In this document: positions 9,289 to 33,708 of the stretch, piece by piece
Layout: each line of letters begins with the position of its first letter
How positions within the stretch are numbered: position 1 is the first letter of the stretch
Assembly: GCA_016745055.1 (NCBI GenBank)
Contig: JADGDF010000026.1
Span: 1-34,486 of the forward strand
Direction of reading: 5' to 3'
Source of the DNA: Thiotrichaceae bacterium
GTDB lineage: Bacteria > Pseudomonadota > Gammaproteobacteria > Beggiatoales > Beggiatoaceae
DNA: 34,486 bases
Notes under the pieces: generated by a model
Told to the model about the DNA's origin: nothing
The model's input: the letters and a program-made list of their open reading frames with translations, nothing else
Databases searched by the model: none
Program-made: the position numbers and the translations under genes

Positions 9289-10815
9289 ATGTTTACAAAT
9301 CTCCCATTACTTAGCTTGCTAATGTGGTTGCCTATTTTGGGTGGTATCTGGGTCTTATTGGTTAAAGATGCACAAACAGCAAAGCCCATTGCATTAGTGA
9401 TTTCACTCATTACCTTTGCAATGTCACTCCCCTTATTTTTCCATTTCAATACCACAACTGCGGACATGCAATTTACTGAAATGCATGCCTGGATACCCGC
9501 ATTCAGCGCTAATTACCATTTAGGTGTTGATGGTATTTCTATGCCGCTTATCATTTTGACATCTTTTAGTACTGTATTAGTTATTTTAGCGGGTTGGGAG
9601 GTTATCCAATATAAAGCTGCACAATATATGGCTGCCTTTCTGATTATGGAAGGATTAATGATTGGTGTATTTGCAGCGTTAGATGCTTTGTTATTCTATG
9701 TTTTGTGGGAAATCATGTTGGTGCCTATGTTTATTATCATCGGCGTTTGGGGTGGGCCAAAGCGTATTTACGCAACGATTAAATTTTTCTTATACACCTT
9801 TTTAGGTTCAGTATTGATGTTAGTGGCTTTATTATATTTATATAATCAAGCAAACAGTTTCTCTATCCTAGATTACCACCAACAAGCTTTATCCTTGGAA
9901 GCCCAAAAATGGGTTTTCCTCGCCTTTTTTGCCGCCTTTGCTGTAAAAGTACCCATGTGGCCAGTGCATACTTGGTTACCTGACGCTCATGTTGAAGCAC
10001 CCACAGGTGGCTCAGTCATTTTGGCTGCCATTATGTTGAAATTAGGGGCTTATGGTTTTTTACGTTTTAGCCTACCTATTACGCCTGATGCTAGCCGTGA
10101 ATTAGATTGGTTCATCATCACTCTCTCCTTGATTGCCATTGTATATATTGGTTTTGTCGCTTTAGTGCAAAGAGATATGAAAAAGCTCATTGCCTACTCT
10201 TCAATTTCTCATATGGGGTTTGCAACTTTGGGGTTTTTCATTGCCTTTAGAATTTTTGAAAACCCAAGTTTAACCAATGAAGCAGCAATGAGTGGTGCTG
10301 CCATGGGTATGGAAGGTGGACTTGTACAACTCATTTCTCATGGCTTTATTTCTGGTGCCTTATTCCTATGTGTGGGCGTATTATATGACCGTATGCATAG
10401 TCGCGAAATTGCAGATTACGGCGGGGTGGCCAACACCATGCCACGTTTTGCCATGTTTGCCGTGTTATTTGGAATGGCCAATGCGGGTTTACCAGCAACA
10501 TCAGGATTCGTGGGAGAATTTCTAGTCATTTTAAGTAGTTTCAAAGCCAATTTCTGGTTTGCCTTTTTAGCGGCGACTACCTTGATTTTAGGCGCTGCTT
10601 ACACCTTATGGATGATTAAACGGGTTATCTTTGGTCCGGTTGCCAATGATAATGTTGCTAAACTGCAAGATATTGGTTTTCGAGAAACCTTAATTCTAGG
10701 AATTTTAGCCATTGCTGTATTATTTTTTGGCATTTACCCCGCGCCATTATTAGAAGTAATGCATGTAACGGTAGAAAATTTATTGGAACACATTTTACAA
10801 TCAAAAATTATCTGA
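9289..10815 (+). CDS. nuoM: NADH-quinone oxidoreductase subunit M (NuoM), orphan
   Basis: A 508-residue proton-pumping antiporter-like subunit of respiratory complex I, almost the same length as E. coli NuoM. About 14 membrane helices are expected. Functional residues are in place: the Glu in LLFYVLWEIMLVPMF, the Lys in FAVKVPMWPVHTWLPDAH, the Lys in IMLKLGAYGF, and the helix-break region ISHMGFATLG. MPRFAMFAVLFGMANAGLP is NuoM-type rather than NuoL- or NuoN-type. A GAGAG ribosome binding site precedes the ATG. Normally nuoM sits between nuoL and nuoN; here neither is adjacent. It may be an extra copy or part of a dispersed operon. Confidence 0.9.
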   Translation: MFTNLPLLSLLMWLPILGGIWVLLVKDAQTAKPIALVISLITFAMSLPLFFHFNTTTADMQFTEMHAWIPAFSANYHLGVDGISMPLIILTSFSTVLVILAGWEVIQYKAAQYMAAFLIMEGLMIGVFAALDALLFYVLWEIMLVPMFIIIGVWGGPKRIYATIKFFLYTFLGSVLMLVALLYLYNQANSFSILDYHQQALSLEAQKWVFLAFFAAFAVKVPMWPVHTWLPDAHVEAPTGGSVILAAIMLKLGAYGFLRFSLPITPDASRELDWFIITLSLIAIVYIGFVALVQRDMKKLIAYSSISHMGFATLGFFIAFRIFENPSLTNEAAMSGAAMGMEGGLVQLISHGFISGALFLCVGVLYDRMHSREIADYGGVANTMPRFAMFAVLFGMANAGLPATSGFVGEFLVILSSFKANFWFAFLAATTLILGAAYTLWMIKRVIFGPVANDNVAKLQDIGFRETLILGILAIAVLFFGIYPAPLLEVMHVTVENLLEHILQSKII

Positions 10816-17197: not shown

Positions 17198-20100
17198 ATG
17201 GATAAGTTAATAGGTGCAGAATATGTGGAGGCAACGTACTTTTTTGCGCAAACTTCTGCATTATTCTGCACGCTTAATTTTAAGGGAGAATTTCAACAAT
17301 TAAATCCTGCCTGGGAAAACCGTTTGGGTTATCCCCTGGAGAATTTATATCAAAAGCCTTATTTAGACAATGTATACCCAAATGATGTAGAAGCCGTGCA
17401 ACAGGCTTTAAACCAGTTAACAACAGGCCATCAACAAGTTATTGAGTTTATCAGTGCTTATCGCCATCAACAGGGGCAGTACCAAAATTTTGCTTGGGAA
17501 GCAACGGTTTCCGTAGAAAAACAACAGATTTATCTTGTCGCTACGCGATTAAACCATTTAGCTTCAGAAATACAGGTTGATCCGCAACTTAATGCGCTCA
17601 AAACCACTTTTCCAAGTGAACATACAGAAGCAACTTTATTTCTGTTTATTAATGCCTTACCCAACCCTATTGTCCTTAAAGATGCGAGTTATCAGCGTCG
17701 TTTCTTCAACGATGCTTTTTGCCAGTTGACGGGTTATACCCGTGAAGAGTTACTTAATACGCCCTCTGAACAGCTATTTCCTCATCAAGAAGTACTGAGC
17801 TTTAGGGAAAAAGACGACTACGTCCTACAAACAGGACGACAAAGCGTCACTGAAGAATCGTTAACTGATGCACATCATGTTGTACATATCGTCCTGACTA
17901 AAAAAGTACGTTACACTGCGCCCAGTGGAGAACAGTTTATCATTGCTGCGTTTACTGATATTACCGACCGCCAGCAAATAGAAAAACAACTGCGTCACAA
18001 TGAAGCCTTACTCTCTGCTATTTTTGATAAAGTCAGTGTTGGCATTTGCTTAACTGATCATCAAGGTATTTTTGTGCAGGTTAACCCTGCGTTTTGCGAT
18101 TTATTTGGCTATCAAGTAGAAGAGCTGTTAGGTAAACCGTTTACAATGGTATTACCGCCCGAAAAACGCAATGATACTCTGCAAGTTCATCATTCATTTG
18201 TGCAAGGACAAGGTAATTGGCAAATTGATTGGCGAGTGAGGCATAAAAATGGTCATTACTTTGACATAGAAATTCGCGTCGATCTGCTCAAGTTTCAAGC
18301 GGATCAAACTTACCAAATTACATTACTCACTGACGTTACAAAACGTAAGCATGTCGAAAACTCGCTGCGACGCAGCGAAGAACGCTATCGTCTTCTATTC
18401 AATAGTGGTTACGACGCTATTTTTGTATACCATGTTGATACTAATGGTATGCCTATGCATATCATCGAAGTGAATGACATTATCTGTCAACGTTTTGGAT
18501 ATAATAGAGAAGCCCTATTACAACAGGCGCCTCAAGTATTATTCGCTGATTTAGACATATTTTCTCAAGAACAAACTCAAAAATTACTGGCAGAAACACA
18601 TCTATTATTTGAAACCACTTTACTGACGCAACAAAACCAAAAACGGCCTTGCGAGATTAATATTCACTTGTTCCAACTTGAAGGTCAGGCCACCGCATTG
18701 GCCATTGTGCGCGACATTAGTGAACGCGAAGCGGCTCAAGCGGCCCTTGCTTCCCAAGAAGCAGAATATCAGCGCCTCATGCAACATGCCAACAGTATTA
18801 TCATTCGCGTCATTCCTAGTGGAGAAATTACCTTCTTTAACGAATTTGCTGAAAATTTCTTTGGTTTTCAACAAAAAGACATTATTGGCAAAAATATTAT
18901 TGGTTCCATCGTCCCTAATCAAGACAGTGAAGGCTTCGATCTCCCGCCAATGATTGAAAGCATGTTGCGTTATCCTGAACATTTTGCACATATTGAATAT
19001 GAAAATATCTGTCAAAACGGCAAACGTGTTTGGATCGCCTGGGCTAACAAACCCATCTATGATCAAAATGGCACATTCACTGAATTACTTTGCATTGGCA
19101 GCGACATTACTGAACGCAAGCAGGTGGAAGATGCACTCCAAAAACGAGATAAAGTCCTTCAAGCTATTGCGCAAGTCACACATTATTTGCTAACCACACC
19201 GAATTACACCGATGCTATTGGTGAAGCTTTACGTACTTTGGCACAACTCACTTTAGTGGATAGAGCTTATATTTACGAAAATCATGTGCATCCTCAAACG
19301 GGTGAACAAGTCATGAGCCAGCGCTTTGAATGGAGCGAACAAAATCAAGAATTATGGATTAACCACCCAGAAATGCAAAATTTACCCTACGGCACGATTT
19401 TGCCTCGTTGGTATGCTCGATTATCAATGGGTAAATCCATGACTGGGATTGTGCGTAAATTTCCATTGGAGGAAAGAAAAAGCTTAGAGGCTAGAAATGT
19501 TATTTCTGTACTGCGAGTACCCATACTATTTGATGGTCAATTTTGGGGGTTTATAGGATTAGACGACTGTCACCAGGAAAGAGAGTGGTCATCACATCGT
19601 CAATTTTTACTCAAAACTGTTGGGGACAGTATTCGCGGTACTATGGCTCGTCGTCAAGCTGAAACAGGTTTGCGACGTAGTGAAACTAAATTCCGGACCA
19701 TGATTGAACATAACAGTGATGGTATTTTAATTCTCAATCAGCAAAATATCATTCTGTTCGCTAATAAAACCGTCGAACACATGTATCAAGTGCCACAGAA
19801 CACACTGGTTGGCAAACATTTCCGTATTCCTAGTTTAACGGCCCAAAAAACTGAGATTGAAATTTTACAAAAACAAGAGCCTCCTTTAATTGCTGAGCTT
19901 AGAGTAGCAGAAGCAGAATGGGAGCACCAAGCCGTATTCATCGTGTCTTTGCGGGATGTCACTGAGCGAAAATCAACCCAAGAAGCCTTGCAAAAAGAGT
20001 ATAAACGAACCCAGTTAATTTTAGAAAATTCGATGGATGGTTTTTTTGTCAATACTTTACAAGGTCAATTAATTGAGGTAAATCGTGCATTTTGCGACAT

Positions 20101-22369
20101 GCTAGGTTATATGCGCAGACAAACCTTATTAGAAACTCACCATGATTTGTTATGCCCAAAAGATAGTTTAAACATAGTGCAACAACACCGGCAACAGGTC
20201 CAGCGTCAAGGTTGGGGTATGCTTGAAACTGAATTGGTGACTAAATCTGGGGCTAAGATTGCGGTTGAAATTAGCAGTAATTACATTCATCAGGAAGATG
20301 AAGGTTTATTTTATAATTTTGTGCGGGATATTACTCGCCGTAAACAAGCTGAAGCTGAACTAGTCACCGCCAAGGAAACGGCTGAAACCGCAAATATGGC
20401 TAAAAGCGAATTTTTAGCCGCTATGAGCCACGAAATACGTACGCCAATGAATGGTATTATAGGTATGACAGATTTGGTACTCAAAACGGCTTTAACTGAT
20501 CAACAACATCGTTATTTAGATACCATTCGTACCTCAGGAGAAAGTTTACTCAGCATTATCAATGATATTTTAGATTTTTCTAAAATTGAAGCAGGTAAAC
20601 TGAATTTAGAACAAACCTCCTTTGATTTACAAAAATTAGTAGAAGAAGTAGTTGATTTATTTGCAACACCTGCCCATAACAAGCAACTAGAGCTAATTTG
20701 TCAATGCCCTCCTTTGAATTATAATGTCACAGGTGATCCGTGGCGATTGAAACAAATTATCAGCAATTTATTGAGTAATGCGATAAAATTCACAGGTCAA
20801 GGAGAAGTAATGCTTAAAGTGTCAGTCCATCATGAAACAGCTGATACAGTGGTATTACATTTTGCCGTTAAAGATACAGGGATTGGCATCAGCGAAACCG
20901 CTCTAAAACGGTTATTCCAAGCATTTTCTCAAGCAGACAGTTCCACCACGCGTCGTTATGGTGGCACAGGATTGGGTTTAGTCATTGTTCAGCGACTCCT
21001 GAAAATGATGCAAGGGGAAATTGATGTCGTTAGTGTGCCACAGCAAGGCAGCATTTTTTGGTTTAGCTTGCCTCTGCCAAAATCTAAGCAAATGGATGAT
21101 AATGCAGCGCCTAAATTAGAAAAACTGCAACAACTTGGTCACAATTTAAAGCTATTATTGATTGATACGCATAAAACAAAATGTGAAATTTTATTAGAAC
21201 AGATACGCTGTTGGGGTCTTAGCATTGATGCTGTCACGACATTGGCAGCTGGCATAGATAAGTTACGTCAGGCAACTCAAGAAAAACAGGCTTATGATAT
21301 TGTTTTGATTGATGAAGCGACGAATGAGATTGAAAAGCTAGAAATTGCAAAGCTCATTCATCACGACCCAAGCATTTTCAATACAACCATTGTGATGTTG
21401 ACTTTTGTGAATGAAGTTTTGCAAGATATAATACAACAAAATATGACTGTACTCAGGTTAAATAAACCTGTTACCCAATCAAAGTTGGTAGAAGTGTTAA
21501 ACCTGGCGTTAGGTTATGACCAAGGGCAACGTTCACTTGATCAAGCAACTCCCATCGTTGCACCCTTTGCGGGTAAACAAATTTTAATCGTAGAAGATAA
21601 TACGATTAACCAAATGGTTGTGAGTGATATGCTGGAACAACTTGGGTGTCAACTAACCTTAGCGGAAAATGGTCAACAGGCATTGGCATGCTTATCTCAA
21701 AATCAACGATTTGACCTAATTTTAATGGATTGTCATATGCCTGAAATGGATGGCTTTGAAGCCACACGTCATATTCGTCAACAGGAAAGGAAGACAACAC
21801 AGCAAATACCCATTATTGCGTTGACAGCCAATGCGATGGCTGGTGATCGAGAAGCGTGTTTAACAGTAGGCATGAATGATTATTTGAGTAAACCGATAAA
21901 ATCAGAAGCCTTATTAACTTGTTTGAAACGTTGGTTGAAATCAGAAGTAGGACAAATTTCTGAGCTTGCGACGTTAAGTACACACTTGAAAACCACCCCT
22001 TCGTCACAAGCACCCTTACCGGTATTGGACAAACAAGTGTTAAATACCTTACAACAAGAAATGCGTGGGCGTAGTATTCAATGGTTAATTGATTTGTTTT
22101 TAAAAGAATCGCCTAACTATGTTGAAGCTGTTTTCCAATCTATACGTGAACAAAATCTTGAGGATTTATATCAAGCAGCCCATAAATTAAAAGGGAGCGC
22201 AGCCAGTTTAGGGGCTAAACGGATTGTTCAACTTTGTTTAACGATGGAAAATTATAGTAAAGAAAATAAATTAAAAGAGGCTACCACAGTCATCACCACT
22301 CAGTTGCCAGAAGAAATTAAACAGCTTCGGCTCGCTTTGGAGAAGGCAAAAAATGATTACGCAAGATGA
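17198..22369 (+). CDS. Multi-PAS/GAF hybrid sensor histidine kinase with two REC domains and HPt
   Basis: A 1723-residue cytoplasmic hybrid kinase with no membrane helix seen. Domain order: PAS units starting near residues 8, 148, 269, 394 and 521; a GAF domain at about 650-820; PAS units near 829 (short) and 934; HisKA with phospho-His H1078 in SHEIRTPMNG; HATPase at about 1175-1295 (KDTGIGIS, GGTGLGL); a degenerate receiver at about 1315-1435; a good receiver at about 1460-1580 with D1511 (LILMDCHMPEMDG); and an HPt domain with H1662 (AAHKLKGSAASLG). All parts of a His-Asp-His relay are in one chain. The next gene starts 17 bp inside this one and encodes a REC-GGDEF protein, the likely phosphate acceptor. 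Signals are unknown. GGA precedes the ATG. Confidence 0.93.
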   Translation: MDKLIGAEYVEATYFFAQTSALFCTLNFKGEFQQLNPAWENRLGYPLENLYQKPYLDNVYPNDVEAVQQALNQLTTGHQQVIEFISAYRHQQGQYQNFAWEATVSVEKQQIYLVATRLNHLASEIQVDPQLNALKTTFPSEHTEATLFLFINALPNPIVLKDASYQRRFFNDAFCQLTGYTREELLNTPSEQLFPHQEVLSFREKDDYVLQTGRQSVTEESLTDAHHVVHIVLTKKVRYTAPSGEQFIIAAFTDITDRQQIEKQLRHNEALLSAIFDKVSVGICLTDHQGIFVQVNPAFCDLFGYQVEELLGKPFTMVLPPEKRNDTLQVHHSFVQGQGNWQIDWRVRHKNGHYFDIEIRVDLLKFQADQTYQITLLTDVTKRKHVENSLRRSEERYRLLFNSGYDAIFVYHVDTNGMPMHIIEVNDIICQRFGYNREALLQQAPQVLFADLDIFSQEQTQKLLAETHLLFETTLLTQQNQKRPCEINIHLFQLEGQATALAIVRDISEREAAQAALASQEAEYQRLMQHANSIIIRVIPSGEITFFNEFAENFFGFQQKDIIGKNIIGSIVPNQDSEGFDLPPMIESMLRYPEHFAHIEYENICQNGKRVWIAWANKPIYDQNGTFTELLCIGSDITERKQVEDALQKRDKVLQAIAQVTHYLLTTPNYTDAIGEALRTLAQLTLVDRAYIYENHVHPQTGEQVMSQRFEWSEQNQELWINHPEMQNLPYGTILPRWYARLSMGKSMTGIVRKFPLEERKSLEARNVISVLRVPILFDGQFWGFIGLDDCHQEREWSSHRQFLLKTVGDSIRGTMARRQAETGLRRSETKFRTMIEHNSDGILILNQQNIILFANKTVEHMYQVPQNTLVGKHFRIPSLTAQKTEIEILQKQEPPLIAELRVAEAEWEHQAVFIVSLRDVTERKSTQEALQKEYKRTQLILENSMDGFFVNTLQGQLIEVNRAFCDMLGYMRRQTLLETHHDLLCPKDSLNIVQQHRQQVQRQGWGMLETELVTKSGAKIAVEISSNYIHQEDEGLFYNFVRDITRRKQAEAELVTAKETAETANMAKSEFLAAMSHEIRTPMNGIIGMTDLVLKTALTDQQHRYLDTIRTSGESLLSIINDILDFSKIEAGKLNLEQTSFDLQKLVEEVVDLFATPAHNKQLELICQCPPLNYNVTGDPWRLKQIISNLLSNAIKFTGQGEVMLKVSVHHETADTVVLHFAVKDTGIGISETALKRLFQAFSQADSSTTRRYGGTGLGLVIVQRLLKMMQGEIDVVSVPQQGSIFWFSLPLPKSKQMDDNAAPKLEKLQQLGHNLKLLLIDTHKTKCEILLEQIRCWGLSIDAVTTLAAGIDKLRQATQEKQAYDIVLIDEATNEIEKLEIAKLIHHDPSIFNTTIVMLTFVNEVLQDIIQQNMTVLRLNKPVTQSKLVEVLNLALGYDQGQRSLDQATPIVAPFAGKQILIVEDNTINQMVVSDMLEQLGCQLTLAENGQQALACLSQNQRFDLILMDCHMPEMDGFEATRHIRQQERKTTQQIPIIALTANAMAGDREACLTVGMNDYLSKPIKSEALLTCLKRWLKSEVGQISELATLSTHLKTTPSSQAPLPVLDKQVLNTLQQEMRGRSIQWLIDLFLKESPNYVEAVFQSIREQNLEDLYQAAHKLKGSAASLGAKRIVQLCLTMENYSKENKLKEATTVITTQLPEEIKQLRLALEKAKNDYAR

Positions 22370-24029
22370 ACAAAAACCTTTGGTGCTTGTTGTTGACGAT
22401 GATGTTTTCATGCGCGGCATGTTGCAAAATCTGTTGGAAGAGCAGGGAAATCGTGTCATTGCAGCGGAAGATGGCCAAAAAGCATTAGAAGAATTTTATC
22501 GTCATTTTCCAGACTTAGTTTTATTGGATGCGGCTATGCCGATTATGGATGGATTTACTGCTTGTGCAGAATTAAAACGTAATGAACTTGCTGCAGATGT
22601 GCCTGTTATTATGATTACCTCTTTAGATGATGAAGAATCTGTCGATAAAGCATTTGCCGCAGGCGCAGTGGAATATATTACCAAACCAGTCCATTGGAGT
22701 GTATTACGTCACCGAGTGCAAGTTGTCCTCCAGGCTCGGCAGGCTCAAATTGCTTTACGCAACAGTGAAGCAAGATTTCGGGGTATTTTTGAACAATCTG
22801 CCATGGGCATTGCTTTATTGAATAAAGAAGGTTATTTATCGGAAGGTAATCCCATTACACAAAAAATGCTGGGTCGCAGCTTAGAAGAGTTACAACAGAA
22901 ACCCTTTAGTCGTTTTTTTTATCCTTTTGATACTAATGTGGAAAAAGAATTTCATCAACAATTGCTAAGTGATAAGCGTACATTTTATCAAATGGAAAAA
23001 TACTTTTTTCGTAAAGATAGCCCGATGTTATGGGCGCGTATCACTACTTCTTTAGTCAAAGATGATAAAGATGAGCCTAAATTTGTGGTTCAAATGGTCG
23101 AAGATATTACCGAACGTAAACGGGCTCAAGCAAAGCAAAGACTAGCGGCTAAAGTATTTGAAACAACCTCTAATGGTGTGATGATCACTAATGCTGAAGG
23201 GCATATTATTGACATCAACCAAGCCTTTTTACTCTCAACTGGTTACAGCTACGAAGAAGCTTTGGACCAAAATCCACGTTTTCTACGCTCAGGCCATCAT
23301 GACAAAGCATTTTATGAAGATATGTGGGTGGGAGCAAGAGAAACAGGTCGTTGGCATGGCGAGGTTTTAAATAAACGTAAAGATGGTGAAGTTTATTCAA
23401 CTTGGCTTTCTTTAAGTGCGGTGCGAGGTGAACATAATGAAATTACGCATTATGCTGCCGTTTATTCTGATTTGGCCCCTTTAAGAGAAGATGATGCCCG
23501 CTTGCGTTTACTCACCCATTACGATACCTTGACAGAATTACCTAATCGATTACTGTTCCACGAACATTTAACGCGGGCTTGTCGTCAAGAAGATAAAGTT
23601 GCTTTGTTGTATATTGATTTAAATGACTTTAAAAGTGTGAATGAAGACTTCAGTTTTGACATTGGTGACGAATATTTAAAACAATTTGCCAAAAAACTGA
23701 GTCAATGTGTACGTGATGGTGATATTGTTGCCCGTTTAGATGGGGATGAATTTGGTATTGTACTTGCCCCCATTGACCAAGAATATGATGCCTGTACTAT
23801 TGCAGAAAAGGTATTAGAGACCGTCACTGTTCCTATGTCAATTCAAGGAAATATTATTCAAGTTGACTGTAATATTGGCATTAGTTTATATGCAAATTCC
23901 CAAAACGAAGAGGGTGTAGCGGACAATATCGATATTCTCATTCAATATGCTGATATGGCGATGTACCTTGCTAAAGAGTCAGGTAAGAATAGTTACCATG
24001 TATATTCTGAGGTGACACTTGAAAATTAG
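22353..24029 (+). CDS. Response regulator diguanylate cyclase, REC-PAS-PAS-GGDEF
   Basis: A 558-residue protein. The receiver (about 8-125) has VDDD, phospho-site D59 in LVLLDAAMP and the KP pair in YITKPVHW. Two PAS domains start near residues 139 and 264. The GGDEF domain (about 385-555) has its signature as DGDEF at 463-467, with Asp in place of the first Gly, and a complete inhibitory RxxD site (RDGD) at 454-457. The D-for-G change leaves the metal and catalytic acids in place, so activity is possible but not certain. No EAL domain follows. The gene overlaps the hybrid kinase by 17 bp, with GGAG ahead of the ATG, so the two are translationally coupled and probably form one pathway to c-di-GMP. 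Confidence 0.92.
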   Translation: MITQDEQKPLVLVVDDDVFMRGMLQNLLEEQGNRVIAAEDGQKALEEFYRHFPDLVLLDAAMPIMDGFTACAELKRNELAADVPVIMITSLDDEESVDKAFAAGAVEYITKPVHWSVLRHRVQVVLQARQAQIALRNSEARFRGIFEQSAMGIALLNKEGYLSEGNPITQKMLGRSLEELQQKPFSRFFYPFDTNVEKEFHQQLLSDKRTFYQMEKYFFRKDSPMLWARITTSLVKDDKDEPKFVVQMVEDITERKRAQAKQRLAAKVFETTSNGVMITNAEGHIIDINQAFLLSTGYSYEEALDQNPRFLRSGHHDKAFYEDMWVGARETGRWHGEVLNKRKDGEVYSTWLSLSAVRGEHNEITHYAAVYSDLAPLREDDARLRLLTHYDTLTELPNRLLFHEHLTRACRQEDKVALLYIDLNDFKSVNEDFSFDIGDEYLKQFAKKLSQCVRDGDIVARLDGDEFGIVLAPIDQEYDACTIAEKVLETVTVPMSIQGNIIQVDCNIGISLYANSQNEEGVADNIDILIQYADMAMYLAKESGKNSYHVYSEVTLEN

Positions 24030-24201
24030 ACATCAGCAATTAACATAATTTCTAAACTTATCTTATCCACTACTTTTTACTGAATTCTGATTGCTGACTC
24101 CTGAATTCAGTACGCTACATTTTTTCTAAATTCTTGCAACTAACTGTTTGCTAAAAATTTAAATCAATAAGCTGCTATACTCTTTAAAAAACTGCAAATT
24201 T

Positions 24202-26268
24202 ATGAAAATCCTCATGACTACTCGTGAAAACCATATGGATAAACGTTATGGTTTAGGCAAAAGTTTGACGCCTATCATTGATGAATTGACTTTGCGTGGC
24301 ATTGAAGTTGGCTATCTTTGTCAAACGGATGCAGGTGAAAAAAGTCGACGATGGTTGCGTCATTTGCATACTATTCTCGTTAAATTATTTGCACGTTTTT
24401 TTAAAGAAACCGAATTTATTTCTTTGGCCTGGGGTATTTTGGAACGTATCAATATGGGTCGGTTGGCAGCAAAAGTCATGGTGCGTGATAAATATACACA
24501 TGTTCATTGCCACGATCCACTTATCGGCGCAGGTTACCGTTGGTTTGCACGCATTCGTTGGTTTGCCACTCTGCGTTTGGGACATATTGCAAGATGGGGT
24601 GTGACTGAGCATGGTTTTGGCTGCTATGCCCAAGCCTTTCATGAAGATGGTGCGCGTTTGGGCACTTATGTCATGCGCTGGTTGCGTAAATGGGAAGCTA
24701 AAATCTTACTTAAAGCGCATTGGGTGATTACGCCAACTCAATTGGGTTTAAATCAGTTAGCGCGAGATTTATCCATTTATCCTACCCCTAAAACTTGGCA
24801 TGTAATTCCTCATACCCGTCCAATACTTAATTTGTATGATAAAACAACGGCGCGACAACAATTGGTCTGGTCACCTAATTCACTCTATATTATAGCGGTT
24901 GGCCGGTTTGCCCCACTTAAACAGTTTCCAGAGCTCATTCAAGCTTGTGCGCAGCTAGGAAAGCTGGACTTCCAATTAGTATTTATTGGCGAAGGAGAGC
25001 GTGAACCTCTGCAATATTTGGCTGAAGAGCTAGGTATAGGGAATAAAATTAGTTTTGCTGTATCAAATGATATGGGTTTGTACTACTCAGCGGCAGATAT
25101 TTACGTGAGTACTTCAACGACTGAATCATTTGGGTTAGCCAATTTAGAAGCTTTGGTGATGGAATTACCCACAGTATGCACTGCGGTGGGTGGTGTGCCA
25201 GAAGTGATGGGTAGTGGTGGCTGGTTGATTCCTCCTCAAAATATACCCGCTTTGGTGGGCGTATTACAAATTTTAGCTGCCAATGAAACTCTGCGTATCC
25301 ACTGGCAACAACAGGCAAAACAGTGGGCACAATCTTGTTTGGATATAAAAACGGTAGTGGATGCTTATTTGAGGGCTTATGAAGGCAGGCATTCAGAAAC
25401 TAGCCTTCAGACGTCAGAATTCAGAAATAAGAATGATTTAGGCGGAATGGAGTTTATAACTCCGTCCAAAGCGTTTGCAGGAAGCATTGCGTCCACCTTC
25501 GAACAATGGCATCAGCAAATACAACAGTGGCAATTATGTCCTTTGCCTAAACCGCTTGAATTACCTGATCAAGCAAACATTTTATTAATTGCCCCACATC
25601 CTGATGATGAAGTTTTAGGTTGTGGAGGAACTTTGTCATTACTCCAACAAAATGGTTGCCATGTAAAAGCGGTTGTGATTACCGATGGTAGTCAAGGTGA
25701 TCCCCTAAATTTTAGTGATGAACCCATCGTTCCACGTCGTCAACAAGAATCTAGAGAAGCATTAGCAATTTTAGGCATTCAAGATGTAACTTTTTTCACG
25801 CAACCTGATGGTGAGTACCAACATTCTGAAGAGATAACCCAGCAACTTCACGAACTATTAAATGATTTTTCTCCAGATTGGTTACTGCTTCCCTCAATTT
25901 TAGATTACCACCGTGATCATGTCGCGATTTGTTTATCTCTACTTGATGTTTGGCAACAAAGGGGTTGCCAAGCACGTTTGCTGATGTATGAAGCTTGGGG
26001 AACTATTCCCGCGACTTGGATAGTGGATATTAGCCAAGTATTTGAACGCAAAAAAGCCGCCATTCGTTGCTATCAATTGCCTTTGCAATACGTAGATTAC
26101 TTTGCAGCCTGTATTGGCATAGCTAGCTACCGTGGTTTATACCTCACAGAAGCCCATCAAGGCGAATATGCAGAAGCTTTCGTAGAATTGCCAGCGACTC
26201 AATGGCAAGCCACTTTGACGCATTTATATCAAATTCGGGAATATCAAGAAAGATTTTTACAGTCTTAG
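24202..26268 (+). CDS. Fusion of GT4 glycosyltransferase and PIG-L (LmbE) deacetylase
   Basis: A 688-residue two-enzyme chain. Residues 1-390 are a GT-B glycosyltransferase of the GT4 type: a sugar-nucleotide region around GRFAPLKQFPELI and the EX7E motif E308-E316 (ESFGLANLE), followed by VGGVPEV. Residues 455-688 are a PIG-L deacetylase with zinc-site motif PHPDDE (465-470) and HRDH (His 570 and 573); such enzymes remove the acetyl group from GlcNAc-type sugars. The linker (about 393-435) is low-complexity and encoded by repeat-like DNA. A cytoplasmic enzyme adding and deacetylating an N-acetylhexosamine on one acceptor is a reasonable inference; the acceptor is unknown. No ribosome binding site is clear. 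It runs 1 bp from the next gene. Confidence 0.88.
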   Translation: MKILMTTRENHMDKRYGLGKSLTPIIDELTLRGIEVGYLCQTDAGEKSRRWLRHLHTILVKLFARFFKETEFISLAWGILERINMGRLAAKVMVRDKYTHVHCHDPLIGAGYRWFARIRWFATLRLGHIARWGVTEHGFGCYAQAFHEDGARLGTYVMRWLRKWEAKILLKAHWVITPTQLGLNQLARDLSIYPTPKTWHVIPHTRPILNLYDKTTARQQLVWSPNSLYIIAVGRFAPLKQFPELIQACAQLGKLDFQLVFIGEGEREPLQYLAEELGIGNKISFAVSNDMGLYYSAADIYVSTSTTESFGLANLEALVMELPTVCTAVGGVPEVMGSGGWLIPPQNIPALVGVLQILAANETLRIHWQQQAKQWAQSCLDIKTVVDAYLRAYEGRHSETSLQTSEFRNKNDLGGMEFITPSKAFAGSIASTFEQWHQQIQQWQLCPLPKPLELPDQANILLIAPHPDDEVLGCGGTLSLLQQNGCHVKAVVITDGSQGDPLNFSDEPIVPRRQQESREALAILGIQDVTFFTQPDGEYQHSEEITQQLHELLNDFSPDWLLLPSILDYHRDHVAICLSLLDVWQQRGCQARLLMYEAWGTIPATWIVDISQVFERKKAAIRCYQLPLQYVDYFAACIGIASYRGLYLTEAHQGEYAEAFVELPATQWQATLTHLYQIREYQERFLQS
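25381..25500. repeat. Repeat-like DNA inside the glycosyltransferase/PIG-L linker
   Basis: Between the two enzyme domains the DNA contains CAGAATTCAG-type sequence at about 25416-25425 and the hairpin GGAGTTTATAACTCC at 25449-25463 within a GGCGGAATGGAG...CCGTCC context. The similar CTGAATTC motif occurs twice in the gap upstream of the gene (24080-24110). This looks like an interspersed palindrome carried in frame within a tolerant linker. Confidence 0.5.
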
Positions 26269-26269
26269 T

Positions 26270-29200
26270 ATGTTCACTATTCCCAATTATCATATCCTAA
26301 ATAAAATTCACGAAGGTCCAAACTCAACTGTTTATCGTGCTCAGAGATTATTGGACCAAGTGGCTGTTATACTCAAAGTTGTACAAAACGATTACCCCTC
26401 CCAAGAAGAGGCTAATCGCTATAAACAAGAGTATGATATTGCCCAATTGATTGATAGTGACCATATTGTAAAAATTTATGCATTGGAACAATGCCAAAAC
26501 AAACCTTTTATTGTTTTAGAAGATTTTGGCGGTGAATCTCTTAAAGTATTACTCAATATCTATCCTTTTAGCTTTATTGAATTGTTGACAATTTCAATTA
26601 AGCTCGTTGAAGCTCTTGCCATTGTTCACCGTGCCAAAATTATTCATAAAGATATTAATCCAAGCAATGTTATTTTCAACCCTAATACCCAACAAGTTAA
26701 ACTCACTGATTTCAGTATTTCAACGCTGTTACCCAGTGAAAATCCAGTCCTAAAAAGTCCCATTGCCTTAGAAGGAACGATTGCCTATATGTCTCCTGAA
26801 CAGACAGGTAGAATGAATCGTCCGATGGACTACCGTACTGACTACTATGCACTTGGGGTTACGCTGTATGAACTTTTTACCAGCAAATTGCCTTTTGATG
26901 CTAATGATGCGATTGAGCTAGTTCATTGTCATCTAGCCAAACAACCAGTCCCCCCTTATGGACTCATGCACGTCAGTGCAGATAGGCAAATCCTAAGAAA
27001 CTTATCAGCAATTATTTTAAAATTGCTGGAAAAAACACCTGAAAATCGTTACCAAAGTCTATGGGGCATCAAAACTGACTTGCAGGCTTGCTTAGACCAA
27101 TTTCAAGCAGGAAAAATTAATACCAACTTCATTGCAGGCCAACATGATGTTTCCAATAAATTTCATATTCCTCAGAAATTATATGGCCGTAATTTAGAAA
27201 TAAAAATGTTGCTAGATGCTTTTGAATGGGCCTGTTTTGGCAATAGTGAAATGCTACTTGTCTCTGGCTATTCCGGCATTGGTAAAACCTCATTGGTCAA
27301 AGAAATTTATAAGCCTGTCACTGAAAAAAGAGGATATTTTATCAATGGTAAATTTAATCAACTACAACGCAACGTTCCCTATTTTGGTGTCGTGCAGGCC
27401 CTTCGTAACCTCATACAACAACTGCTGACTGAAGAAGAAACTCAACTACAGCATTGGCAAAAAACTATTCAAAATGTATTGGGAAAAAATCGCACCTTGA
27501 TGACAGACATTATCCCCGAACTTGAATGGATTATCGGTAGCCAAACCAGCCAGCAGGAAGTTATTTCGAGTGAATTACGCAACCGTGTTAACTTGGTGTT
27601 CAAAAAACTCATACAAATTTTTTGTCGACCTGAACATCCGCTCGTAATTTTTTTAGACGACCTACAATGGGCCGATGCTGCCAGTTTAAAATTACTTACC
27701 TTGATTGCCGCTGATATTCCCTACCTATTTTTGATTGGTGCCTATCGAGATAATGAAGTGAGTCCCACGCATCCTCTGCGTCTAACTCTGGAAAAAATTC
27801 AACAAGCTGGTGTAACTGTTAATACGATTCACCTTACGCCTTTAACATTACCCTACATTGTTCAGTTTATTGCTGATACGCTCAATGCCAGCGTACAAAG
27901 TGTCAAGCCACTTGCCAAACTCATTGTCACCAAAACTGCGGGCAACCCCTTCTTTATGGGAGAATTTCTCAAATCTCTTTATGCAGAAAAACTTCTTAAT
28001 TTCAACGAACAACAACGTATTTGGGAATGGCAGCTAGAACACATAAAACTAAGGGATATTACCGACAACGTCGTTGAACTCATGACGGATAAGGTGCGTA
28101 AACTTGGAGACAAAACCCAACAAGCCCTTAAACTTGCCGCTTGTGTTGGCAACCAATTCAGTTTACATATCCTCGTTATTTTCTACGAAAGAAGTCCACA
28201 AGAAATTTCCAAACATTTATGGGAAGGCATAGAATACGGCCTCATACAACCGCTACCCATCAATCAATTTCAAGCTGCGTCTTCTCATACCGTTACCACG
28301 GAGTACAAATTCTCGCATGACCGCATTCACCAAGCAGTTTACTCCCTGCTAACTGAAGAAGAAAAACAGGCAAATCATTGGCAAATTGGGCAATTACTCC
28401 TGGACACTATGCCTGTCGAGCCTCGCAAACAAAACATCTTTGCTATCGTTGACCAGCTTAATGAAGGCATGGCCATGATCGATCACGACTCAGAGCGAGA
28501 CGAATTGGCCCAACTTAACCTTATCGCCGGAAAAAAAGCCAAAATTTCTGCTGCCTATGAACCGGCATTTGAATACCTTGATATTGGCATGAAACTGCTT
28601 GCCGATAGTGGTTGGCAAAGACAGTATGAACTCACACTTGCTTTGATAGTTGAAGCCATTGAAATTGCTTACCTCAATGCCAACTTTGATGAAGTCGAAA
28701 AACTGGCGGCTATAGTTTCTCACAAAACCAGGAAATTGCTTGATAAAGTCAAAGTTTATGAAATTCAAATAAAATCTTATACGGCGCAAAACCGCTTATT
28801 AGAAGCCATTCAAACGGGACTCAATGTTTTAAAATTACTTGGCTTCAAATTTCCTCAATATCCCACAGCCTATCACACCTTGCAAGGTAAACTTTCAACT
28901 AAATGGCATCTGCAATTTTACCCCATACAGGCTGAAAACATTGAGTTAACAGAAGCAATTAAAACTGATGGTCGCCAAATTAAGCACCTTATTTATCTAC
29001 CCAAGATGAAAAATCCACTTAAATTGGCAGCCACCCGTATTCTAATGAGTGTTGGATTAGCCGCCTATTCTGCGATGCCAAAACTATATACGTTAGTAAC
29101 TTGTAAGCAGGTAAATCTGTCCCTATGTTACGGCAATACGCATTTATCTGCTTATGCTTACGCTGCTTATGGCCAATATTTATGCGGTAATGAAGGCGAT

Positions 29201-31819
29201 ATTCACGCGGGTTGCCAATTTGGCCACTTGGCTTTAAAAGTGTTAGATCGTTTTGAAGCTAAAGAGCTAAGAGCTAGAACAGCTTATATTGTCAACAGCT
29301 TTATTCGTCATTGGAAAGTTCATTTGCGTGATACGCTGCAACCCTTATTGGATACCTGGCAAATCGGTTTAGAAACGGGTGAATTAGACTTTGCAGGTTA
29401 TGCAGTGTTTAGTTATGCAGCCCATGCCTACTTTTGTGGGGAAGATTTAGCTCGTTTGAGCGCTAAAATGGCTGATTACAGCCAAAGTATTCGTAAATTT
29501 AGGCAAGAACGTGCGTTACATCTGCATGAAATCTATCGCCAGGCTGTATTAAATTTACAAGATGCTGAAACAAAGCAACCCACACAATTGATTGGAGAAG
29601 CTTGTAACCAGCAAAAAATGATCACGCTTTATCAACAAGCTAATGATCGTAGCGCTCTATATCATGTGGCGTTTAACCAATTAGTGTTAAATTATTTATT
29701 TGAAGATTATAAAACTGCTTCCAATAGTGCGGCTTTGGCAGCCAAGTATCTTGATGGTACCCATGGTTCATTACCTTTTGCCTTGTTTCACTTTTATGAT
29801 GCCCTCAATAGATTAGCGTTATATCCTAGTACAGCTATTGCTAAACGCAAACGATGGCTAAAAAAAATCAAAGCACATCATCAAAAAATCAAGCAATGGG
29901 TTAAATACAACCCTATGAATTACAGTCATAAATCTGCATTGTTATCAGCAGAAATTGCACGCGTTTATCATCACGAGAAAGAAGCTCGAGAATATTATGA
30001 TCAAGCAATTTCCCTTGCAAAACAGCATCGTTATCTTAATGAAGAAGCCTTGGCCTATGAGTTAGCTGCTAAATTTTATTTAGGTAGAAAACAATTTCAT
30101 GTAGCGCGTTATTATTTGCATAATGCCCATTATGCTTATTTGCGTTGGGGTGCAGCCGCCAAAGTGAGGCAGTTGGAAACCCGCTATGCTCGTTTTTTGG
30201 CGCCGCATGATAATCAACTTTTTTATCCTAATCCCTATGTCACCAGCACCACCACGCAACCGAATAAAAGCATTGATTTCATCAGCATTTTAAAAGCCTC
30301 TCAAGCCATTGCTGGCGAGATCATGCTTAATCAATTATTAGAAAAATTGATGCAAATTGTGATGGAAAATGCAGGTGCACAACGCGGTGTATTAATTTTA
30401 GAAAAAAATGGGCAATGGGTGATTGAAGCGCAAGGGTCATTAGAGCGGCATGAAATTAAAGTATTACAATCGGTTCGTTTAGAAGATATTCCTCTAGAGG
30501 ATGCCACCTTGTCTATTCCGCTGACCTTGGTTAATTATGTGATGCGGATTCAAAAAAGCATGGTGTTAAATAATGCAGCGCAAGAAGGTAAATTTACCCG
30601 CGATCCGCATATGGCAAGATATCAAATAAAATCTGCTTCCTGTGTTCCGCTTCTAAATCAAGGGAAATTAACGGGTGTCTTATATTTAGAAAATAATTTA
30701 ATTGCCAATGCATTTACACCTGAATATTTAGAAGTTTTGAACCTATTATCGTTACAAATGGCTATTTCAATTGAAAATGCCAAATTATATGCAGATACCA
30801 AAGGTTTAAATACGCAACTCCAACAAAGTGAAGAACGATTTAGGATTATTGCTGAAACAACCCCTGTGGCCTTGCTTATTAGTCGTTTTTCAGATGGCTT
30901 AATTCTCTATGCCAATGCTCAAGCAGCTACTTTATACGGAGTGCCAACACAACAGCTCATTGAAAATTATGCCACCACGGATTTCTATTACTATCCAGAA
31001 GATAGAGAAAAATTATTAGAAAAATTTAGTGAACATCGTTATTTACGCAATTATGAAGTAAAATTTAAAAAAATTGATCAAATGCCTTTTTGGGTTGCCA
31101 TTTTTTTACAGCCTATTTTATTTAAAAATCAACAGGCTTTGTTTGCCGCAATCCATGACATTACCGAGAAAAAGCAAGTTGAGCAAGAAAGAATTCGTTT
31201 TACTCAAGAGTTAGCAAGCTTAAATAAAAAATTAGAAAATTATTCTTATACGTTAGAACAAAAAGTTGAAGAACGTACCCGAGAATTACGCAAAGCTAAT
31301 CAAGAATTACAACGATTAGCAACGTTGGACGGCTTAACGCAAGTGGGTAATCGACGGCAATTAGATGCTTATTTAGATGAAATGTGGCAAAAATTAGGTA
31401 AAGCCAAACAACCTTTATCTTTAATTTTATGTGATATTGACTATTTTAAGGCCTATAACGATACTTATGGCCATCAAGCGGGAGATGATTGTTTAAAAAG
31501 AGTTGCTCAGGCAATGGATCAAACGGTTAACCACCCTGATTTGATTGCACGCTATGGGGGGGAAGAATTTACTATCATTTTACCCAACAAAGTGTTAGAT
31601 CAAGCAGAAAAAGTGGCTCAAGCAGTTCATGAAGCGGTTGCCCAACTTAAAATTCCACATGCTAACTCTCAAGCTAATGAATTTATTAGTTTAAGCATGG
31701 GGGTGGCTAGCATGATACCCACCATCGAGCGTAGCGAAAGTGTGCTGAGTAATACAGCAGATCAATCCTTGTATCAGGCTAAAAACAGTGGTAGAAACAA
31801 AATTGTTTGTGCCAGATAA
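26270..31819 (+). CDS. Ser/Thr kinase-AAA ATPase-GAF-PAS-GGDEF multidomain signalling protein
   Basis: A 1849-residue protein. Order: protein kinase fold (about 1-275) with K36 (VILKVV), catalytic-loop D128 in HKDINPSN and metal D147 in DFS (Ser for the usual Gly); AAA_16-type ATPase with Walker A GYSGIGKT (333-340) and Walker B FLDD (463-464); a long helical TPR-like region (about 660-1330); GAF (about 1333-1510); PAS (about 1520-1640); coiled coil (1640-1680); GGDEF (about 1685-1849) with signature GGEEF at 1763-1767. The Arg of the inhibitory RxxD site is replaced (NHPD), so product inhibition at that site is probably lost. Similar kinase-AAA-GAF proteins in cyanobacteria usually end in a histidine kinase; this one ends in a diguanylate cyclase. 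The ATG is 1 bp past the previous stop. Confidence 0.92.
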   Translation: MFTIPNYHILNKIHEGPNSTVYRAQRLLDQVAVILKVVQNDYPSQEEANRYKQEYDIAQLIDSDHIVKIYALEQCQNKPFIVLEDFGGESLKVLLNIYPFSFIELLTISIKLVEALAIVHRAKIIHKDINPSNVIFNPNTQQVKLTDFSISTLLPSENPVLKSPIALEGTIAYMSPEQTGRMNRPMDYRTDYYALGVTLYELFTSKLPFDANDAIELVHCHLAKQPVPPYGLMHVSADRQILRNLSAIILKLLEKTPENRYQSLWGIKTDLQACLDQFQAGKINTNFIAGQHDVSNKFHIPQKLYGRNLEIKMLLDAFEWACFGNSEMLLVSGYSGIGKTSLVKEIYKPVTEKRGYFINGKFNQLQRNVPYFGVVQALRNLIQQLLTEEETQLQHWQKTIQNVLGKNRTLMTDIIPELEWIIGSQTSQQEVISSELRNRVNLVFKKLIQIFCRPEHPLVIFLDDLQWADAASLKLLTLIAADIPYLFLIGAYRDNEVSPTHPLRLTLEKIQQAGVTVNTIHLTPLTLPYIVQFIADTLNASVQSVKPLAKLIVTKTAGNPFFMGEFLKSLYAEKLLNFNEQQRIWEWQLEHIKLRDITDNVVELMTDKVRKLGDKTQQALKLAACVGNQFSLHILVIFYERSPQEISKHLWEGIEYGLIQPLPINQFQAASSHTVTTEYKFSHDRIHQAVYSLLTEEEKQANHWQIGQLLLDTMPVEPRKQNIFAIVDQLNEGMAMIDHDSERDELAQLNLIAGKKAKISAAYEPAFEYLDIGMKLLADSGWQRQYELTLALIVEAIEIAYLNANFDEVEKLAAIVSHKTRKLLDKVKVYEIQIKSYTAQNRLLEAIQTGLNVLKLLGFKFPQYPTAYHTLQGKLSTKWHLQFYPIQAENIELTEAIKTDGRQIKHLIYLPKMKNPLKLAATRILMSVGLAAYSAMPKLYTLVTCKQVNLSLCYGNTHLSAYAYAAYGQYLCGNEGDIHAGCQFGHLALKVLDRFEAKELRARTAYIVNSFIRHWKVHLRDTLQPLLDTWQIGLETGELDFAGYAVFSYAAHAYFCGEDLARLSAKMADYSQSIRKFRQERALHLHEIYRQAVLNLQDAETKQPTQLIGEACNQQKMITLYQQANDRSALYHVAFNQLVLNYLFEDYKTASNSAALAAKYLDGTHGSLPFALFHFYDALNRLALYPSTAIAKRKRWLKKIKAHHQKIKQWVKYNPMNYSHKSALLSAEIARVYHHEKEAREYYDQAISLAKQHRYLNEEALAYELAAKFYLGRKQFHVARYYLHNAHYAYLRWGAAAKVRQLETRYARFLAPHDNQLFYPNPYVTSTTTQPNKSIDFISILKASQAIAGEIMLNQLLEKLMQIVMENAGAQRGVLILEKNGQWVIEAQGSLERHEIKVLQSVRLEDIPLEDATLSIPLTLVNYVMRIQKSMVLNNAAQEGKFTRDPHMARYQIKSASCVPLLNQGKLTGVLYLENNLIANAFTPEYLEVLNLLSLQMAISIENAKLYADTKGLNTQLQQSEERFRIIAETTPVALLISRFSDGLILYANAQAATLYGVPTQQLIENYATTDFYYYPEDREKLLEKFSEHRYLRNYEVKFKKIDQMPFWVAIFLQPILFKNQQALFAAIHDITEKKQVEQERIRFTQELASLNKKLENYSYTLEQKVEERTRELRKANQELQRLATLDGLTQVGNRRQLDAYLDEMWQKLGKAKQPLSLILCDIDYFKAYNDTYGHQAGDDCLKRVAQAMDQTVNHPDLIARYGGEEFTIILPNKVLDQAEKVAQAVHEAVAQLKIPHANSQANEFISLSMGVASMIPTIERSESVLSNTADQSLYQAKNSGRNKIVCAR

Positions 31820-33041
31820 ATCTCCATTTTATCTCAGCATTTTTTTGGCTACTGCTTTAAGTTGTGTATTAGTGGTTGGGTTATTTAATTGGCTTATTGA
31901 TCCATTTGGTATTTACCAAAACGTTAAAATTTCACGCCTTAATGCAGCCAAACCCCATATGGATGTGATTGGTAAATATAGCCTTAAAGCGATTTGTTTA
32001 TTAGCCGATGATTATAAAGTTGCTATTTTAGGTACTTCTCGTTCAAATAGAGGTATTTCCCCCTTTCACGCTGCATTTAAGCCTAAAGGTAAAACTTACA
32101 ATACTTCCCTGGTTGGCGCTTATATCAATGAACTTGATAAAGTTGTTAATTACATTATTCGTTATCAAAAGCAGGTAAAACTCATTATCTTTTCTTTAGA
32201 TTTTTTTACCTTTAACGAATATAATATTACCAATATTCACTTTGAACAATCCCCTTTTGCTGGTAAACACTATTTTTTCAAAAAACTCCCTCAGTTATTT
32301 ACTTTAGATGAAGCTTATTATGCTTCGCAAACTTTGCTACATAATTTAACGACTCAATCAGAAATAACTTCTTTGTGTCATAAACAAGGTTTTTCAACTC
32401 GCCCATTTTTATTGCCTCACCGTCATTTATTCACTAATACTTTGGAAAAGTTTTTTCGTGGTAAACCTTTGTATGCAGGATTTTGTTACAGTCCTAAAAA
32501 ATTGCAAAAATTTAAGCTTATTTTACAAAAACTGCATCAACATCAAATAAAGGCAAAATTTTATATTTCTCCTGTTCATGCATTACAGTTGGAAGCCTTA
32601 CGAGTAGCTAATTTATATCCTACTTTTGAACAGTGGAAGAGAGATTTAGTACATATTTTTTCTGACGATGCTCAATTATATTCAAATGTAGCCTATCCAT
32701 TATGGGATTTTAGTGGCTATAACACAATTACCACAGAATCAATCCCTAGTGACTTGCAACCCATGCGTTGGTATTGGGAGTCGTCTCATTTTAAACAACC
32801 CGTGGGAGATTTAGTCATTGACAAGGTTTTTGGTTATAGGGATGAAAGTCGTCAAATACCATTAGATTTTGGTATTTTATTGACATCAGATAATATTGAA
32901 ACTCATTTATACCATACGCGTTTAGCACAACAACAATATCATCAAACCCATTCTCAGGAAGTTAAAATGGTTGAAAATTTGGCAAATAAAGTGTTACGCA
33001 GAGAAAATAGGGCATGTTTAAGCAATCTTCTAGTAAATTAA
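31788..33041 (+). CDS. Membrane-anchored SGNH/DltD-like protein
   Basis: A 417-residue protein with one N-terminal membrane helix (about 14-36) and a large domain probably outside the membrane. The LGTSRSNRGI segment (81-90) looks like the GDS-type block of SGNH hydrolases, with S84 as candidate nucleophile, and WYWESSHFKQPVGDLVID (328-345) looks like the closing His block (H334). This layout resembles DltD, AlgJ and AlgX, which modify or transfer acyl groups on envelope polymers. That function is inferred from short motifs. The GTG start at 31788 overlaps the upstream cyclase gene by 32 bp; TTG and GTG codons slightly downstream are alternatives. Its stop lies 4 bp from that of the converging gene. 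Confidence 0.62.
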   Translation: MVETKLFVPDKSPFYLSIFLATALSCVLVVGLFNWLIDPFGIYQNVKISRLNAAKPHMDVIGKYSLKAICLLADDYKVAILGTSRSNRGISPFHAAFKPKGKTYNTSLVGAYINELDKVVNYIIRYQKQVKLIIFSLDFFTFNEYNITNIHFEQSPFAGKHYFFKKLPQLFTLDEAYYASQTLLHNLTTQSEITSLCHKQGFSTRPFLLPHRHLFTNTLEKFFRGKPLYAGFCYSPKKLQKFKLILQKLHQHQIKAKFYISPVHALQLEALRVANLYPTFEQWKRDLVHIFSDDAQLYSNVAYPLWDFSGYNTITTESIPSDLQPMRWYWESSHFKQPVGDLVIDKVFGYRDESRQIPLDFGILLTSDNIETHLYHTRLAQQQYHQTHSQEVKMVENLANKVLRRENRACLSNLLVN

Positions 33042-33045
33042 GCGT

Positions 33046-33708
33046 CTATTTACCATTAATATAGCATTTATCGCTAAAACTACTGACCCACTGAGGACGA
33101 AAAACAACGAGGATGGTAATTAACATACCGTTTAAAAAAGCTTCAGGAAACAACATTACAATGATAAATAATGGCTCATCACCTAATTGTGTCCAACGGT
33201 AAGTATCGCTCAACAGCAAAATACCCATCCCAGTCAGTCGACTGGCTAACATGGCTAGTGCGCCACCAAAAAAAGCGCTGGCATAAATATAAATAAAGAA
33301 ATGTTTGGGTAAAAATAAAAAAGCCAACCAATAAATACCATAGGTCACCCAAATAGGGACAATACCATTACAAAGTGTATTTAGAGAAAAGCTTGTCCAA
33401 TCAGCGTGTCCACTTATTGTGAGTCCTAATTGCACCAATGTGACATTCAAGATTGCAAATTGCCAACCAAACATCAATGTAACAGTTGTCACTAGCAATA
33501 GGTGAAATTCTAACCCGAGTGTGATACCTCCGCTGAGTTGCCAAATTAGCCATAGGATAATACAGCTGGCAAAAAAAACATTGGCATCATTTGTATTTTT
33601 TAAATGATGCCAAGGGGCTTGCCAAATAGCAAATATTAAAAGAGGAAAGTAGAAAAGATGGCTTCCCCATAGCCAAATATTGGGTAGGAGAGACGTCGAA
33701 AAATTCAT
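33046..33708 (-). CDS. CbiM-like integral membrane protein (energy-coupling permease family)
   Basis: A 220-residue protein with about six membrane helices. The closing LFPEAFLNGMLITILVVFRP is the signature of a predicted membrane protein group related to CbiM, the substrate-side subunit of cobalt/nickel ECF transporters. The classical N-terminal metal-binding MHIxxG start of CbiM is absent, and no CbiN, CbiQ or CbiO is nearby, so metal import is not established. The gene lies 27 bp after the next gene upstream on the same strand. A different role for this family in membrane maintenance cannot be ruled out. Confidence 0.65.
   Translation of the reverse strand: MNFSTSLLPNIWLWGSHLFYFPLLIFAIWQAPWHHLKNTNDANVFFASCIILWLIWQLSGGITLGLEFHLLLVTTVTLMFGWQFAILNVTLVQLGLTISGHADWTSFSLNTLCNGIVPIWVTYGIYWLAFLFLPKHFFIYIYASAFFGGALAMLASRLTGMGILLLSDTYRWTQLGDEPLFIIVMLFPEAFLNGMLITILVVFRPQWVSSFSDKCYINGK

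Follow-up and report, generated by a model that had tools for sequence, protein, structure and literature searches.

Layout of the three-gene locus

From our analysis of a 34,486-nucleotide contig of a Thiotrichaceae bacterium (assembly GCA_016745055.1, contig JADGDF010000026.1; this whole stretch is hereafter the window), we examined three genes that lie head to tail on the plus strand as candidates for the synthesis or modification of a surface glycan. An initial annotation, made from the sequence alone, had read them as a single glycan system under the control of cyclic di-GMP (c-di-GMP). The three open reading frames (ORFs) are long and intact, and their placement and order are as first annotated. 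The domain calls also agree, by Pfam for the first two proteins and, for the third, by the predicted fold together with the invariant residues Ser84 and His334. The features are as follows.

24030..24201, plus strand: 172-bp gap ahead of the three-gene run, the obvious place for a promoter (sequence)
24202..26268, plus strand: GT4 glycosyltransferase fused to a PIG-L-type de-N-acetylase, 688 aa (Pfam and ten full-length family orthologues)
26270..31819, plus strand: Ser/Thr kinase-AAA ATPase-long middle region-GAF-PAS-GGDEF protein, 1849 aa (Pfam, motif scan, paralogues, and relatives in the genomes G002, G007 and G011)
31788..33041, plus strand: SGNH/DltD/PatB-like membrane-anchored protein, 417 aa from GTG 31788 (homologues, predicted fold, MBOAT adjacency elsewhere, and co-occurrence)
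31788..31819, plus strand: overlap of the kinase-GGDEF and SGNH genes, 11-32 bp by start codon (sequence and homologue N-termini)

Exactly 1 bp, at 26269, separates the fusion gene from the kinase-GGDEF gene, as first annotated. The overlap of the last two genes is also real, but its annotated length of 32 bp is an upper bound. Because the first conserved tyrosine (Tyr15) is preceded by only 5-6 residues in most homologues of the SGNH protein, TTG 31803 or GTG 31809 are better starts than GTG 31788, and they reduce the overlap to 17 or 11 bp, respectively. Promoter-like sites in the region, including 24030-24201, were not above chance in our promoter scan, and the terminator scan gave the same result.

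Both halves of the fusion are recognized by Pfam (Glycos_transf_1, 1.8e-30; PIG-L, 2.9e-28). The E-x7-E motif of GT4 enzymes (E308, E316) and the HxDD and HxxH motifs of PIG-L enzymes (H466, D468, D469, H570, H573) are present and invariant across the aligned orthologues of the family, the ten full-length ones being at 56-63% identity. The predicted model of the fusion was weak (mean predicted local distance difference test score, pLDDT, 62; predicted template modelling score 0.43), too weak for a fold search. In the second protein, Pfam finds Pkinase (3.7e-36), AAA_16 (1.3e-36), GAF (1.1e-14), PAS_9 (8.2e-11), and GGDEF (3.4e-50). The GGEEF site is intact in the motif scan, and the protein is a predicted diguanylate cyclase. 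The arginine of the inhibitory site is replaced (NHPD in the window copy, RxxD in the relatives in G002, G007, and G011), and the kinase motif reads DFS in place of DFG.

No Pfam domain was found in the SGNH protein, and a search of PDB sequences with its alignment returned nothing. Its predicted model (pLDDT 74.6) has SGNH proteins, DltD and PatB included, as the best Foldseek and VIA-align matches. The Foldseek E-values are weak (best 4e-3), and a second look at the structural matches gave DltD (6o93) with Z 11.7 and a root-mean-square deviation of 4.5 over 228 residues, and PatB (7trr) with Z 10.9 and 4.5 over 177 residues. Eight homologues all keep Ser84 and His334 and have Glu or Asp, an acidic third residue, at position 331.

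The three genes in related genomes

Relatives of the whole fusion occur in 11 of the 36 other genomes of the family, and we read the flanks of these orthologues over roughly 6-9 kb on most sides, with less at contig ends (1.5 kb on one side in G033). Conserved adjacency of the three genes had been named by the initial annotation as the test of its own proposal, and in a pattern scan 0 of the 11 orthologues had a GGDEF or SGNH motif in the flanks read. Nor did BLAST, with the settings used, find a homologue of either the GGDEF or the SGNH protein of the window in these flanks, and no GGDEF was found at the further loci scanned. Of all genomes examined, only that of the window (G000) showed the three genes in this arrangement, and no related genome was found to hold any two of the three genes together. 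Fusion and SGNH genes are both present only in G000, G003, and G033 among 58 genomes of relatives, and in G003 and G033 they lie on different contigs. The GGDEF-bearing relatives of the second protein, in G002, G007, and G011, stand beside other genes in a context that is not conserved; they are on other contigs than the fusion gene, except in the finished genome G002, which has no SGNH gene and in which the nearest such relative is 2.1 Mb from the fusion gene.

The recurrent neighbours of the fusion orthologues are genes for a Wzt-type ABC ATPase, a GNAT protein, and a methyltransferase, and glycosyltransferase genes as well. In G003, the Wzt-type, GNAT, and methyltransferase genes extend right up to the fusion gene, and the surroundings of the orthologues in G017, G018, and G032 have Wzt and a methyltransferase-GNAT protein in common. 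In G027, which is of the same genus as G003, a different PIG-L gene directly adjoins GNAT and Wzt genes. No Wzt gene lies in the window; the Wzt-type ATPase of this genome is encoded at C27:11353-12570, and its GNAT protein on another contig (C231). By named records, the fusion is found in Thiomargarita, Parabeggiatoa, and Thioploca. The halves of the G018 orthologue fall in two separate frames. Both halves are also encoded in Nitrosomonas, Methylobacter, and some Burkholderiaceae, where they mostly form two ORFs that adjoin or overlap; the Nitrosomonas and Methylobacter loci have a Wzt gene nearby and, in several cases, a gene for an ABC-2 permease, which Pfam identified in L073. At one Burkholderiaceae locus (L071:9791-11929), GT4 and PIG-L share a single frame of 712 aa, and the fusion may have arisen more than once or spread. 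No direct precedent for a pairing of PIG-L with Wzt was found in titles or abstracts of the literature, which is weak evidence.

Nine proteins of the kinase-AAA type are encoded in the genome of the window. The five other full-length paralogues that we read have no GGDEF motif and carry a C-terminal histidine kinase-like sequence, with HELRTP in three and HEINTP in two. The window protein ends in GGDEF, and Pfam finds no histidine kinase domain in it. Some of these paralogues form tandem pairs in which the two genes are very similar (L187 and L188, on contigs C346 and C326); the pair on C326 encodes proteins of 1809 and 1822 aa with 6 bp between the genes.

Homologues of the SGNH protein were found in 6 of the 58 genomes of relatives (G000, G003, G023, G027, G033, and G051), and matches above 500 bits to an MBOAT protein of the window genome (C193:2219-3736, PF03062) were found in exactly the same six. 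An identical set would have a chance of 2.5e-8 if the two were independent, a figure that ignores the relatedness of the genomes and for which the threshold was set afterwards. A wider set of 369 genomes from the class added 14 genomes outside the family with an SGNH homologue; an ORF ending in FxYFxF directly precedes the gene in 13 of them and ends about 0.75 kb upstream of it in the remaining one (L209). Such an ORF is also directly upstream in G003 and G027. This preceding ORF is MBOAT by Pfam in G003 and G027, by protein match in G051, and by the terminal motif only elsewhere. No MBOAT gene lies beside the window gene, its paralogue on C109, or the copies in G023 and G033. The C193 protein ends in FLYFQF, which fits the published FXYXXF shuttle motif; this motif and an acyl-tyrosine mechanism were described for PatA/PatB, and the motif occurs also in DltX (PMC12148441). 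Because an MBOAT-type ORF is directly upstream in 13 of the 14 outside genomes and the window genome has its MBOAT on C193, the window SGNH gene is probably a displaced partner of the C193 protein.

The second SGNH copy of this genome (C109; L057:7032-8249) is 43% identical to the window protein and closely follows recA, from which a single 151-aa ORF separates it. The G+C content of the window SGNH gene (31809-33041) is 32.7%, and 22.9% at third positions, against 37.7-42.2% for the eight other window genes compared; the lower value is compatible with a later arrival of this gene.

Interpretation of the locus

We favour, with a probability of about 0.65, the reading that three genes of separate history were stacked here in a lineage-specific way, with two surface-glycan enzymes around a sensor diguanylate cyclase. 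A joint function and c-di-GMP control of the trio are unsupported, because relatives keep each gene elsewhere with other partners. The single c-di-GMP-controlled system first proposed is thus not borne out, the trio being neighbours in none of the related genomes examined. The surface-glycan role stands for the fusion and SGNH genes, each by independent context and with different partners.

The fusion would be a cytoplasmic glycosyltransferase-deacetylase acting on a surface glycan, presumably of the lipopolysaccharide (LPS) core or O-polysaccharide type. Its GT4 half would add an N-acetylhexosamine to the growing glycan, and its PIG-L half would then strip the acetyl group to leave a free amine. 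The GNAT-like transferase encoded on C231 may re-acylate this amine before export, and export would be carried out by a Wzm/Wzt-type transporter that includes the ATPase encoded on C27. The SGNH protein would be the periplasmic half of an MBOAT-SGNH O-acyltransferase, in which the C193 MBOAT would load an acyl group on the tyrosine of its C-terminal FLYFQF and hand it over to Ser84 of the SGNH protein, which would put it on a putative envelope polysaccharide. The kinase-AAA-GAF-PAS-GGDEF protein, one of nine HstK-like sensors, would make c-di-GMP in response to a signal.

Several points weigh against this reading. There is no plus-strand terminator-like site at either junction, and the 1-bp gap and short overlap suggest co-transcription of the three genes in this organism, an odd arrangement if they were wholly unrelated. 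The genomes examined hold no second member of the window's genus, so that recent selection for the arrangement is possible. For 7 of the 11 fusion orthologues in the family, the flanks read showed no Wzt, and since most of the family has a Wzt-type ATPase, co-presence alone is weak evidence; adjacency to Wzt is the stronger point. The 500-bit threshold for the MBOAT was picked after the data were seen.

It is unlikely, in our estimate, that the locus is a lineage-specific operon in which the kinase-GGDEF protein raises c-di-GMP and thereby governs how the flanking enzymes N-deacetylate and O-acylate one surface glycan. The shared strand and close spacing speak for such an operon, as do the glycan enzymes on both sides of a putative diguanylate cyclase with an intact GGEEF site, and co-transcription of the three genes in this one organism is plausible from their packing. 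Against it, no pairing among the three genes was found in relatives, and elsewhere the fusion has Wzt and GNAT as neighbours and the SGNH protein has MBOAT as its partner. Pfam found no PilZ domain, a known c-di-GMP receptor, in those window proteins that were scanned, and other receptor types are possible. Titles and abstracts gave no direct precedent for Beggiatoa with c-di-GMP or GGDEF, or for a diguanylate cyclase and an SGNH protein in one operon; this, too, is weak evidence. Rather improbable as well is that the SGNH protein is a stand-alone esterase that removes, instead of adding, O-acyl groups. Many SGNH folds are esterases, and in the window genome, G023, and G033 the gene has no adjoining MBOAT, but its exact co-occurrence with a close MBOAT across the 58 genomes, the near-universal adjacency of the two outside the family, and the presence of DltD and PatB among the best structural matches argue against it.

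It is very unlikely that the fusion serves low-molecular-weight thiol synthesis, as a single-protein equivalent of BshA/BshB or MshA/MshB that supplies the glucosaminyl-malate or glucosaminyl-inositol precursor. Bacillithiol and mycothiol synthesis do proceed by GT4 transfer and then PIG-L deacetylation, and the best partial NCBIfam matches are to BshA at 84 bits and, in the second half, to BshB1 at 70 bits, but these scores are far under the curated equivalog cut-offs of 273.7 and 182.5 bits, and the recurrent neighbours of the orthologues are of the Wzt, GNAT, methyltransferase, and glycosyltransferase kinds. We give similarly little credence to the idea that this lineage captured a kinase-AAA-GGDEF sensor and placed it between the glycosyltransferase-deacetylase and one half of an O-acyltransferase, with c-di-GMP or kinase signalling tuning both modifications of one surface glycan, its N-deacetylation and its O-acylation, via an unrecognised receptor.

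Directly upstream of the trio and on the same strand lie two further signalling genes, which we treat as context outside the claimed system.

17198..22369, plus strand: hybrid histidine kinase with multiple PAS, receiver, and Hpt domains (Pfam)
22353..24029, plus strand: response regulator-PAS-PAS-GGDEF protein with a DGDEF site and an RDGD inhibitory site (Pfam and motif scan)

These genes overlap by 17 bp and likely form a two-component c-di-GMP pair, in which the response regulator-GGDEF protein is a possible second source of c-di-GMP. On the other side, a convergent gene (33046-33708) for a CbiM-like membrane protein (PF01891, 52 bits) ends 4 bp from the SGNH gene. A SET-domain protein (PF00856, 38.8 bits) is encoded at 560-1138, here in a bacterial genome. 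A 508-aa ORF at 9289 was considered as an MBOAT and rejected, being a proton-antiporter/NADH dehydrogenase subunit.

Comparison with known systems

Tight packing in one genome proved a poor guide to function here; in comparative context the locus falls apart into three genes, each of a known kind and with its own partners, and each of the three parts is fairly ordinary alone. The fusion gene set resembles the neighbours PA5001-PA5003 of the Pseudomonas LPS core cluster, which encode an RfaB-family glycosyltransferase, a PIG-L deacetylase (PA5002, dnpA), and a GNAT protein (PMC8005017), a likeness in published annotation. In contrast to that cluster, the window has the glycosyltransferase and PIG-L in one protein, and the GNAT gene is elsewhere in the genome. 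De-N-acetylation of the core GalNAc by DnpA, followed by alanylation, is proposed and unproven (PMC10579960). The GT4-PIG-L fusion of Thiomargarita, Parabeggiatoa, and Thioploca offers a single-protein test case for the transfer-then-deacetylate step proposed in LPS-type glycans, a step still unproven for Pseudomonas DnpA.

PatA/PatB, AlgI/AlgJ/AlgX, and DltB/DltX/DltD share with the window protein the SGNH fold, the N-terminal membrane helix, and the conserved Ser and His, and with its genome a partner MBOAT with a C-terminal FxYxxF. An SGNH family that lacks a Pfam model can now be named as an MBOAT partner. Unlike these systems, the window genome encodes the two halves at separate loci and has a single MBOAT for its two SGNH copies, and the window SGNH protein has Glu and not Asp three residues before the His. 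The kinase-GGDEF protein resembles the HstK type, named after an Anabaena (cyanobacterial) protein with a Ser/Thr kinase and a C-terminal histidine kinase (PMC2176072); the likeness lies in the N-terminal Ser/Thr kinase, the GAF domain, the very large sensor, and the several paralogues per genome, whereas GGDEF replaces the C-terminal histidine kinase in the window copy. BshA/BshB and MshA/MshB are like the fusion in the order of GT4 transfer of GlcNAc and PIG-L de-N-acetylation; the window protein differs from them in being fused, in scoring far below the NCBIfam cut-offs for BshA and BshB1, and in having other genomic partners.

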